A stretch of DNA of 64,000 nucleotides, from the NCBI GenBank assembly GCA_038049695.1, contig CP142452.1, positions 73,103,501 to 73,167,500 on the forward strand, in the 5' to 3' direction. A model generated the notes under the pieces. That model did not search any database. It worked only from the letters and a program-made list of their open reading frames with translations, and was not told the DNA's origin. A program made the translations under genes and the position numbers. Positions 16,053-37,766 of this stretch are shown piece by piece. How positions within the stretch are numbered: position 1 is the first letter of the stretch; every line of letters starts with the position of its first letter. The DNA comes from Cinnamomum chago (Eukaryota; Streptophyta; Magnoliopsida; Laurales; Lauraceae).

Positions 16053-19000
16053 ATGCCAGCGACCTCGACCTCAATGGCTTGCCCGTCCAGCAGTCGCCTA
16101 CAGCAAATGTTGCAAGCCACAGCTAAAGGAATTCAATGGACCTACAGTCTTTTTTGGCAGCTTTGTCCTCAACAAGGGTAAGCTAAACAAAAGACAATCC
16201 ATCTCATCATCATCATCAAAGTCTTATCCAAGTATGATAATAATCCATCTCAATTTTCATTTTCTTTTCTTTCGCATTTAGAAAGGAGGTGTGATTAGTA
16301 TTATTCCTATACTCACATCATCATTATGATGGTCATCATTATTATTATACTTGGATGTGTTCATTAATATTTAAGGAAAGAAACAATATCCAACGCTTTC
16401 TATCTTGTCTTAACTAACACAATTTTGTTGGAGACTTGTTGGAAATAACAAGCAAACAAGCAGAAAAAAGGATGAATTTCTCTCTCTCTCTCTCTCTCTC
16501 TCTCTCTCTCTCTCTCTCTCTCTCTCTCTCTCTCTCTCTCTCTCTCTCTCTCTCCCTCCCCTGCTTTTCTACTGATTATTGTAATTACTCTAATTATCAT
16601 CATTTTATAACTGCCGTTCGTATTATCGTAATCAGCATGGTGATTAGAAAAACTACTGCTGCTGTTTTTTGTGGTTGCAATTATTTCTATAAAAGAGAAC
16701 TAAATTGCTATTGTCTCATTTTTTTTTCACTTTATTTATCAACAATCCAGTTGCACTCACATATATTTTGTTGTAATTATCATCAAATTCTTATACCATT
16801 TATCCCATTGAGCTTGCTAAGGAAGATACGCATTTCAGCTGTGTAAAAAATTCCTTATAGTTTTACTAAAACCAACCCCCCCTCAACCCTAAGCTATTAC
16901 TAATACAACCAACATCAGTCAGTCAACAGTCAACATCTTCACCTTATTATGGTGGCAATTGTGTAATGTTAATAATGTGGTGTTTAAGTTGTAGTGCCAC
17001 TATTAGTGCGACTACTAATACAATTATAATTGTCACTCATGATTTTACCAAAAAAAAATTACACTCATAATCATCATCATTGTAGCTTTACCATCTATAG
17101 GAGCTGAGATATGCGTTTCCGTGTGATAGATCCTCTTATGGTGGTTGTTATTTAGTTGTTAGTAAAAAATTTTAAGGTACTAAGAATACAGCCATCATCA
17201 TGTGACTTCAGTAATCTTTGCCTCATTACGTCGGTATTGATGTGGAGTTTATATGATTCTGTGATGTTGATAGTAGGACTACTAGTACACTACTGCACTA
17301 CTATCAGGGACATATTATTTCATTTATTTGGTAGAGCTTGCGAAAATAGGCATGCATTTAAACACCACAATTCCCCTACTAATTATAGCTATTGCTGTAG
17401 TCAGTGGCAGTAATGTAACGCTGCAGCAGATGCAATAGTCTCTATTTTTGTTGTTATTCGGGTTATTAGTAGTATTAACACTAACACTACTACTAATAAC
17501 AAAATCATAGTCATCTTCATCGCAACCATGCTAGTTTTTTCAATGTCACAATGCTTTGGTGTTAATGGTGTTGGTTTTTGTGTAGGATCTTAGTATGGGG
17601 AGATGGTTACTACAATGGTGCTATAAAAACGAGGAAGACAATGCAGCCCATGGAGGTAAGCACCGAGGAGGCGTCCCTACAAAGGAGCCAACAGTTGAGA
17701 GAGCTCTATGAGTCACTCGCAGCAGGGGAGACCAACCAACCGGCCCGGCGGCCATGCGCCGCTCTCTCCCCGGAGGATTTGACAGAGTCTGAGTGGTTCT
17801 ATCTCATGTGTGTCTCCTTCTCCTTCCCACCTGGGGTTGAGTATGTCTCTCTTTCTCTCACCTCTTTCCTTTACATGACCTTTTATTTTATTGTCCAATG
17901 TGTCTATTATATTACTTGTGAATTTTCCAGTAACTTTGTAAATTTGCTCTCTTCTTTTTCATCTGGCCTCTAGTATACTTGATGGTAAGATAACTAAGAC
18001 AATTGGTACTATTGTTCATAACCTAACATCAAGTTCATGAAACAATCAAAGGTTTTCCCCTCTTGTAATGGTTGCAACCCTTATGTAATGGGTGTCATCA
18101 CGGTTTAAATTAATGGCTGTTTTATAATAGTTTCGCCTGTTACATACTAGTTGGAGAGGTAACCATTATGATACAAGTCATACAGATTAGTACTAAAACA
18201 CCATTATTTATTTCTTGTGCCTGATATATATTGTTTTATATTAATGTCTTACATAAAACATCCTAAAAGCTAGCCATTAATTATAATGAAGTTTTAGATG
18301 GTGGGATTGTTATGCCAATGTGATTCCTTGGAAACAAGAAAATCATGCCTCGAAACCATGTTCATGGTACTCGTTTTATTGTCATGGTCTAGAAGATTTT
18401 ATCTATTAGGTAATATTCTCAAGAAGACTATAAAAATCATTGAAGATTTTCCATTTTTGGTTTTTAAGATTTCTTTTATTGTTTTTCTCCTAAATGAGAT
18501 TTAACATGGAGTCCAAGGTTCTCTCTTTCTAACACATGCACATGCATGCTTACACTATATCGATGCTAATCTTTGAATAAAGAACACCACACACACCTTT
18601 TCCTTTCTATGTGCCTATAATTTAAGAACAAAGCGCAATACAAAGCAATTGACAAGCAATAAAAACAAACAAGAGAGCAAGAACACATCAGAATTTTATA
18701 TGAAAAATATTAATCTACCTTAGCTAACCATTTTACTAAAACCTTAACAAGTTAGTAGAGGCAGCAAAAATGCTTTTCAATATTTTTCCTTGGGTGGAAC
18801 CCAATTAGCGCACTTTTAGTGACACATATATTATTTTTAGTGCCGAGTTGTTCCTAGTAGAATTCGAACTCATAATTGATTGCATTTGATACCATATTAA
18901 ACTTCATCAGCTAACTGATTTTACCAAAACCTCGAATAATAGATTCAATGAAAATACTTTTCTAAACTCACCCTTGGGTGGAACCCAATTTTTTCTAACA

Positions 19001-37766: not shown

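Follow-up and report, generated by a model that had tools for sequence, protein, structure and literature searches.

A TT8-type bHLH gene with nested transposons in a 14.9 kb second intron

Long introns are already on record in magnoliids, as are pigment regulators whose second intron is filled with transposons, the latter with experimental precedents in soybean R and Brassica TT8. Long genes and introns are reported to be prevalent in magnoliids and Chloranthales, with LTR elements filling the long introns of Chloranthus and a mean intron length of 1.66 kb in Lauraceae (PMC8626473); the introns of Cinnamomum kanehirae are described as slightly longer owing to transposons (PMC6784883). The soybean R gene (Glyma09g36983) carries the 13 kb CACTA element TgmR* in its intron 2, and in the soybean line whose CACTA is more methylated this intron is reported to be spliced accurately, at a lower level (PMC4219821). 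The TT8 gene of Brassica rapa yellow sarson carries a 4.3 kb Helitron in intron 2, its mRNA being reported as undetected and the seeds as yellow (PMC3439492). Arabidopsis transposons within introns carry heterochromatic marks that reportedly prevent premature polyadenylation, and CHG/H3K9 methylation masks these transposons (PMC4417168), and the first 125 nt of GL3 intron 2 are described as required, and active only in place (PMC5550696). Blood orange fruit without pigment is reported to have a raised level of a TT8 splice form that lacks exon 4 (PMC10623405), and the TT8 intron 2 of radish to carry a (TC)13-68 repeat (PMC8309288). Among the papers listed by a literature search, mostly of open-access journals, none deals with TT8 intron 2 in Lauraceae.

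The window (the whole 64,000-nucleotide stretch of DNA that was analysed) contains a TT8-type gene whose intron 2, at 14.9 kb, is about nine times as long as the Lauraceae mean. Its likeness to the long introns of magnoliids and Chloranthales lies in growth by LTR elements, but the window offers a single gene with a resolved insertion order (PMC8626473); the idea that its transposon load is extraordinary finds no support, since long LTR-filled introns are prevalent in magnoliids according to the same source. Like soybean R, the gene is a pigment regulator that has a CACTA element in intron 2 and keeps its frame open, but R is a MYB gene with one element in particular alleles, whereas the window has a bHLH gene with several nested, degraded elements (PMC4219821). 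With Brassica rapa TT8 it shares the gene and the number of the invaded intron, but there no mRNA and yellow seeds are reported (PMC3439492), and with the Arabidopsis intronic heterochromatic transposons (IBM2, EDM2, CMT3, DDM1) it shares a transposon in an intron and an open frame (PMC4417168). The proposal in the earlier note to use intron 2 as a test case for effects on splicing and methylation is sound, with soybean R (PMC4219821) and Brassica rapa TT8 (PMC3439492) as worked examples.

Gene model, orthology and neighbourhood

The TT8 gene, rebuilt from the window at 16053-37766 on the forward strand, has nine exons and eight introns, all of which are GT-AG and match in phase. The joined exons (2127 nt) encode 708 codons and a stop, with no stop or frameshift inside the frame, as the earlier note had claimed. 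Exon 1 (16053-16177), within which six non-avocado homologues in alignment A1 begin, at the second Met (residue 8), is followed by intron 1 (16178-17585, 1408 bp). Exon 2 (17586-17840), which encodes part of the MYB-interaction region and ends in A, not the usual G, is followed by intron 2 (17841-32740), whose previously given length of 14.9 kb proved correct (14,900 bp). Exons 3 (32741-32837), 4 (33725-33739, 15 nt encoding SARIQ), 5 (33838-33894), 6 (34747-35311), 7 (36290-36729, in which the bHLH domain begins), 8 (37020-37499, with the remainder of the bHLH and the bulk of the ACT-like domain) and 9 (37674-37766, including the stop) lie on the same strand; introns 1 and 3-8 measure 98-1408 bp, versus 14,900 bp for intron 2. 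In intron 5, an imperfect inverted repeat (34388-34607, 79%) with AT runs on its flanks is MITE-like.

The encoded protein has the domain order of TT8/bHLH42 (bHLH group IIIf): Pfam recognises bHLH-MYC_N, the MYB-interaction region (residues 16-198, 3.7e-52), HLH (residues 489-536, 2e-13) and a C-terminal plant ACT-like domain (residues 623-701, 3.7e-18). By sequence it is related to solved structures of domains from EGL1, MYC3, MYC2, GL3 and Max. The gene had been described as apparently intact; its coding frame is open, and it is to the coding frame alone that "intact" applies. The locus is predicted still to encode a full MYB-bHLH-WDR partner.

A protein search returned 861 proteins above threshold, and identity to the best 120 of these is 55-94%. 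The closest match listed is the TT8 protein of avocado (Persea americana), which is 94% identical over 100% of its length, is also 708 aa long, and aligns colinearly and free of gaps; the next matches listed are Cinnamomum micranthum (75%), P0003 (70%) and Magnolia (66%). A tree of 28 rows places the window protein among the TT8 orthologues of related plants, with avocado (100/100) and then with Cinnamomum (94/88); the tree has no GL3/EGL row, and separation from that sister group comes from identity and names in the protein search. By these matches the window most likely comes from a tree of the laurel family (Lauraceae) close to Persea, probably other than avocado. Judged by its predicted domains, the tree and its position beside PLP9, the gene is a TT8/bHLH42 orthologue, which upholds its earlier description as a TT8-type regulator. 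With the TT8/bHLH42/AN1 group it has in common the order MYC_N, bHLH, ACT-like, the 55-94% identity among matches listed and the adjoining PLP9; it differs in residue 127 (D, not G), in its very long intron 2 and in having more derived changes than the avocado or Cinnamomum protein.

PLP9 (patatin-like 9; Pfam Patatin, 7e-21) lies about 15 kb downstream of TT8, its first exon being placed at 52484-53437 on the forward strand with both limits read by eye; many of its homologues among the matches listed carry the name "probable inactive patatin-like protein 9". TT8 and PLP9 have close locus tags, and contigs of equal length, in seven other species (Tetracentron, Jatropha, Hevea, Shorea, Diplodiscus, Craigia and Camellia fascicularis), with two such pairs in Diplodiscus. 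In a hand count of the 27 species named among the matches listed for both genes, 15 have some TT8/PLP9 pair on contigs of equal size (the size being that of the longest contig of a cluster), and 12, such as Telopea, Macadamia and Macleaya, have none. The neighbourhood is thus old, if not universal, and as TT8 stands next to PLP9 in other angiosperms, the window gene is TT8 at its ancestral place. A retrocopy, a moved paralogue or a chimaera is disfavoured by the introns, the PLP9 neighbourhood and the bracketing by target-site duplications (TSDs). Four bHLH genes of C. camphora have been called TT8 orthologues (PMC9959432) and a Lauraceae genome duplication has been named (PMC9720445); the avocado and Cinnamomum TT8 genes might be duplicates from such an event.

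Nested elements in intron 2

Recognised elements (19134-21889 and 22783-31225) occupy 11,199 of the 14,900 bp of intron 2 (75%), and leave margins free of any recognised element at its 5' end (17841-19133, 1293 bp) and at its 3' end (31226-32740, 1.5 kb), both read on the forward strand. Long (TC) microsatellites occur in both intron 1 ((TC)40, 16479-16558) and intron 2 ((TC)47, 31453-31546).

The first element (19134-21889, forward strand) is a Ty1/copia retrotransposon with a pair of LTRs (19134-19470, 337 bp, and 21551-21889, 339 bp), a 5 bp TSD (ATACA) and a reverse transcriptase on the gene's strand (Pfam RVT_2, 2.6e-36); TATATAA is present in both LTRs (19325 and 21744). It is internally deleted: its 2.76 kb hold the reverse transcriptase and a weak RNaseH-like match only, and as the reverse transcriptase stretch follows the 5' LTR after only about 400 bp, there is no complete gag-pol. 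The LTRs differ by 41 substitutions in 337 sites (K2P 0.135), which at rates of 1.3e-8 to 1.5e-9 gives an insertion age of 5 to 45 My, a span too wide for a verdict on whether avocado shares the element.

A Ty3/gypsy element, also in the gene-sense orientation and with a broken frame, lies in two parts on the forward strand. The first (22783-24863) runs from a gag-like stretch that begins at about 22783 (a weak Pfam match below the cutoff) to the reverse transcriptase (Pfam RVT_1, 2.8e-10, up to 24863), and the second (30129-31225) holds the RNaseH (Pfam RT_RNaseH_2, 1e-13, after 30128), in the order expected of the group, and an integrase-like stretch to 31225 that was read by eye and has no Pfam match. 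A sensitive comparison of 21890-22800 with 31200-32740 found no LTR pair; an intact gypsy element was therefore rejected, and what is present is a remnant. Inserted in its reverse transcriptase is a solo LTR (24869-30123, unstranded) with TG...CA ends and a 5 bp TSD (GAAAT), 2766 bp long once its own insert is subtracted. That insert is a CACTA (En/Spm) element (27626-30111, 2486 bp, unstranded) with 18 matching bases in its terminal inverted repeats, a 3 bp TSD (CGG) and subterminal repeats: 25 of the 26 copies of CCGATAT in the whole window (both strands) are near its ends. The CACTA interior also contains a 192-bp tandem repeat (28175-28897, 3.8 copies) and nine copies of the palindrome GGCTAGCC.

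The gypsy remnant is thus split by the solo LTR, and the solo LTR by the CACTA element, and TSDs bracket three of the four elements (copia, solo LTR and CACTA). Borders, TSDs and Pfam matches put the elements far beyond chance. The order of insertion in this three-layer nest is gypsy, then an LTR element since reduced to a solo LTR, then CACTA, with copia inserted separately. The earlier note had listed a copia element, a gypsy element, a solo LTR and a CACTA element; all four are present, but the gypsy element is a remnant without an LTR pair and the copia element is internally deleted, and they do not stand side by side, three of them being nested in one another. The ratio of observed to expected CpG rises along the nesting order, from 0.64 and 0.51 in the gypsy parts through 0.78 in the solo LTR to 0.86 in CACTA (copia 0.69; this count used some segment limits that are as much as 4 bp off the final ones), as decay of methylated CpG with age would predict, composition at insertion being uncontrolled. 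The corresponding CWG ratio is off the strict nesting order (gypsy 0.61 and 0.69, solo LTR 0.89, CACTA 1.51, copia 0.97). Sense polyadenylation signals are not enriched in intron 2 (AATAAA occurs 11 times in sense and 14 times in antisense), and a search of Rfam at its gathering thresholds gave no match.

Splice sites of intron 2 and rates of protein change

The donor of intron 2 is the lowest consensus match of the eight (5/9, versus 6-8 elsewhere), and the base before the donor, which is G in seven of the eight introns, is A at intron 2, in the interrupted codon GAT (D127). Residue 127 is G in 114 of the 118 homologues that have a residue there, C in two, D in one (avocado) and E in one (Nelumbo nucifera). 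If intron phase is conserved, exon 2 would still end in G in 116 of the 118, and loss of this G would be common to the window and avocado. At the other end of the intron, an AG at 32732 lies 8 nt upstream of the AG used at 32740, and more AGs lie 15 and 27 nt upstream. The sole branch-point-like motif (YTNAY) in the last 60 nt is CTGAC, which precedes 32740 by 18 nt and 32732 by about 10 nt, a position that favours 32740 as the acceptor. What is new and testable at this locus is the changed donor together with the tandem acceptor.

Splicing from the normal donor to 32732 is predicted to shift the frame and to reach a stop after 17 foreign residues, and retention of intron 2 to give a product of 170 aa, while joining exon 2 to exon 4 would put exon 4 out of frame. 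An alternative donor at 17836 was favoured by U1 duplex energy calculated without a fixed register, and was dropped because it matches only 3/9 consensus positions; combined with the AG at 32732 it is predicted to give the in-frame sequence PPGVCSLPGK. Within exon 2, the donor-like GAG|GTAAGC at 17656 is a 7/9 match, above the 5/9 of the real donor.

Among TT8-type protein fragments of other plants, 23 of 43 end at the exon 2 border and 10 of 43 at exon 3, the 43 being named fragments hand-picked from the best 120 of 147 matches to a query (exons 1-2) that favours such ends. These counts are suggestive of an intron 2 that may often break gene models in other plants. TT8-type models from several unrelated plants (P0242, P0244, P0248, P0250, P0253, P0254 and P0257) break off precisely where exon 2 ends, as if intron 2 broke gene prediction or transcripts. 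None of the best 120 of the 147 fragment matches listed is a named Lauraceae fragment.

The TT8 protein appears to have changed faster in the window lineage than in avocado. With Cinnamomum (P0002) as the outgroup, the window has 21 derived residues versus 8 in avocado (about 2.6 times, p 0.024), or 22 versus 8 in an eight-row alignment; seven further outgroups give ratios of 1.8 to 3.0 (p 0.041 to 0.23), and p exceeds 0.05 with five of the eight outgroups. The terminal branches of the tree measure 0.044 for the window and 0.0099 for avocado. Avocado in turn has more derived residues than Cinnamomum (81 versus 40, p 2.4e-4, with P0003 as the outgroup; p 0.011 to 0.076 with six others). These changes avoid the three domains (taken as residues 16-198, 489-550 and 623-701): 5 of the 38 differences between the window and avocado (39 in the eight-row alignment) are inside them, versus 17.4 expected (p 2e-5), as are 5 of 21 window-derived changes (p 0.033), 0 of 8 avocado-derived changes (p 0.0075) and 16 of 71 changes on the shared stem (p 4e-5). 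No difference from avocado occurs in the bHLH region (residues 489-550). The avoidance of the domains indicates that they are still under selection, while the protein is loose in its middle part. The change L456R, in the window lineage, affects a residue that is L in all 120 other homologues.

Alternative readings of the locus

The anatomy of the gene, its orthology, the order of insertion in the nest and the constraint on the domains are shown by the sequence; expression, silencing and splicing efficiency are what we infer. The locus is probably a full-coding TT8 orthologue at its ancestral place, with an intron 2 that has grown by insertions, is spliced whole and tunes the output of the gene. 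Insertions into the middle of the intron (the nest of gypsy, LTR element and CACTA, and copia apart) would have lengthened it; the transposons would be in silenced chromatin, and the whole intron would be transcribed and then spliced as one. Part of the transcripts may be lost by polyadenylation or missplicing within the intron, which would lower or tune TT8 output while leaving the gene undestroyed. Against this explanation stand the weakest donor match, the competing AGs and the excess of derived changes in the window lineage. On a rival reading, the transposon load and the weakened donor already end or missplice most transcripts, constraint is relaxed, and another bHLH of group IIIf substitutes. 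Such decay would fit the excess of changes in the Persea lineage over Cinnamomum (81 versus 40) and in the window over avocado (21 versus 8), substitutions such as L456R where the residue is fixed in all others, the donor without its G, and the absence of mRNA that accompanies the intron 2 Helitron of Brassica rapa TT8 (PMC3439492). However, all 708 codons are free of stops and frameshifts, the bHLH residues 489-550 are identical to those of avocado, and in each of the four sets tested the changes shun the domains; a TT8 gene that is weakened, or at an early stage of loss, is kept in view as unlikely.

It is possible, if doubtful on the whole, that the transposons matter little, and that intron 2 is a conserved regulatory intron in the TT8/GL3 group, with its free first 1.3 kb regulating the gene. 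The intron runs for 1293 nt before its first element, the EGL3-named fragment P0306 and others like it stop at the exon 2 border where those of TT8 also stop, and the first 125 nt of Arabidopsis GL3 intron 2 carry needed signals when in place (PMC5550696), but no report of the GL3 signals in TT8 intron 2 was found in the literature. That exons 1-2 and 3-9 belong to two loci fused inside intron 2 by the assembly is highly improbable. Assemblies do break at repeats, and 17841-19133, 21890-22782 and 31226-32740 have no internal proof of continuity; against this, matching TSDs surround 19134-21889 and 24869-30123, the gypsy frame resumes beyond its insert, the two sets of exons join in phase into a protein colinear with that of avocado without a gap, and PLP9 adjoins the 3' half as it adjoins TT8 elsewhere.

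Returning to the favoured explanation of a long intron that tunes a working gene, a speculative and quite unlikely extension would be that the Persea lineage lost the G before the donor as a regulatory intron 2 of the TT8/GL3 group, which collects transposons recurrently, grew, and that splicing across heterochromatin became a rate-limiting, methylation-sensitive step that sets TT8 dose and the level of tannin or pigment, with the tandem acceptor (frameshift and stop at 32732, protein at 32740) as part of the switch. If intron 2 is rate-limiting, transposon silencing would be tied directly to the dose of tannin and pigment in trees grown for fruit and timber. A regulator of a visible trait, an ordered transposon stack, weak splice signals in the same intron and sequenced relatives (avocado and camphor trees) together make a clean natural experiment on plant transcription and splicing across heterochromatin.

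Other repeats surround the gene. Copies of a direct repeat at 325-2640 and 61975-64000, near the window ends and about 61.3 kb apart, are 87-89% alike and contain no long reading frame. Two frames with the zf-RVT (reverse-transcriptase zinc-binding) domain, at 9074-9532 (forward strand) and 39955-40887 (reverse strand) on either side of TT8, are likely remnants of non-LTR elements. About 2 kb upstream of TT8, 12743-14254 consists of 369-bp tandem repeats and partial copies that are 88-93% alike, and a further tandem array lies at 57199-57945.
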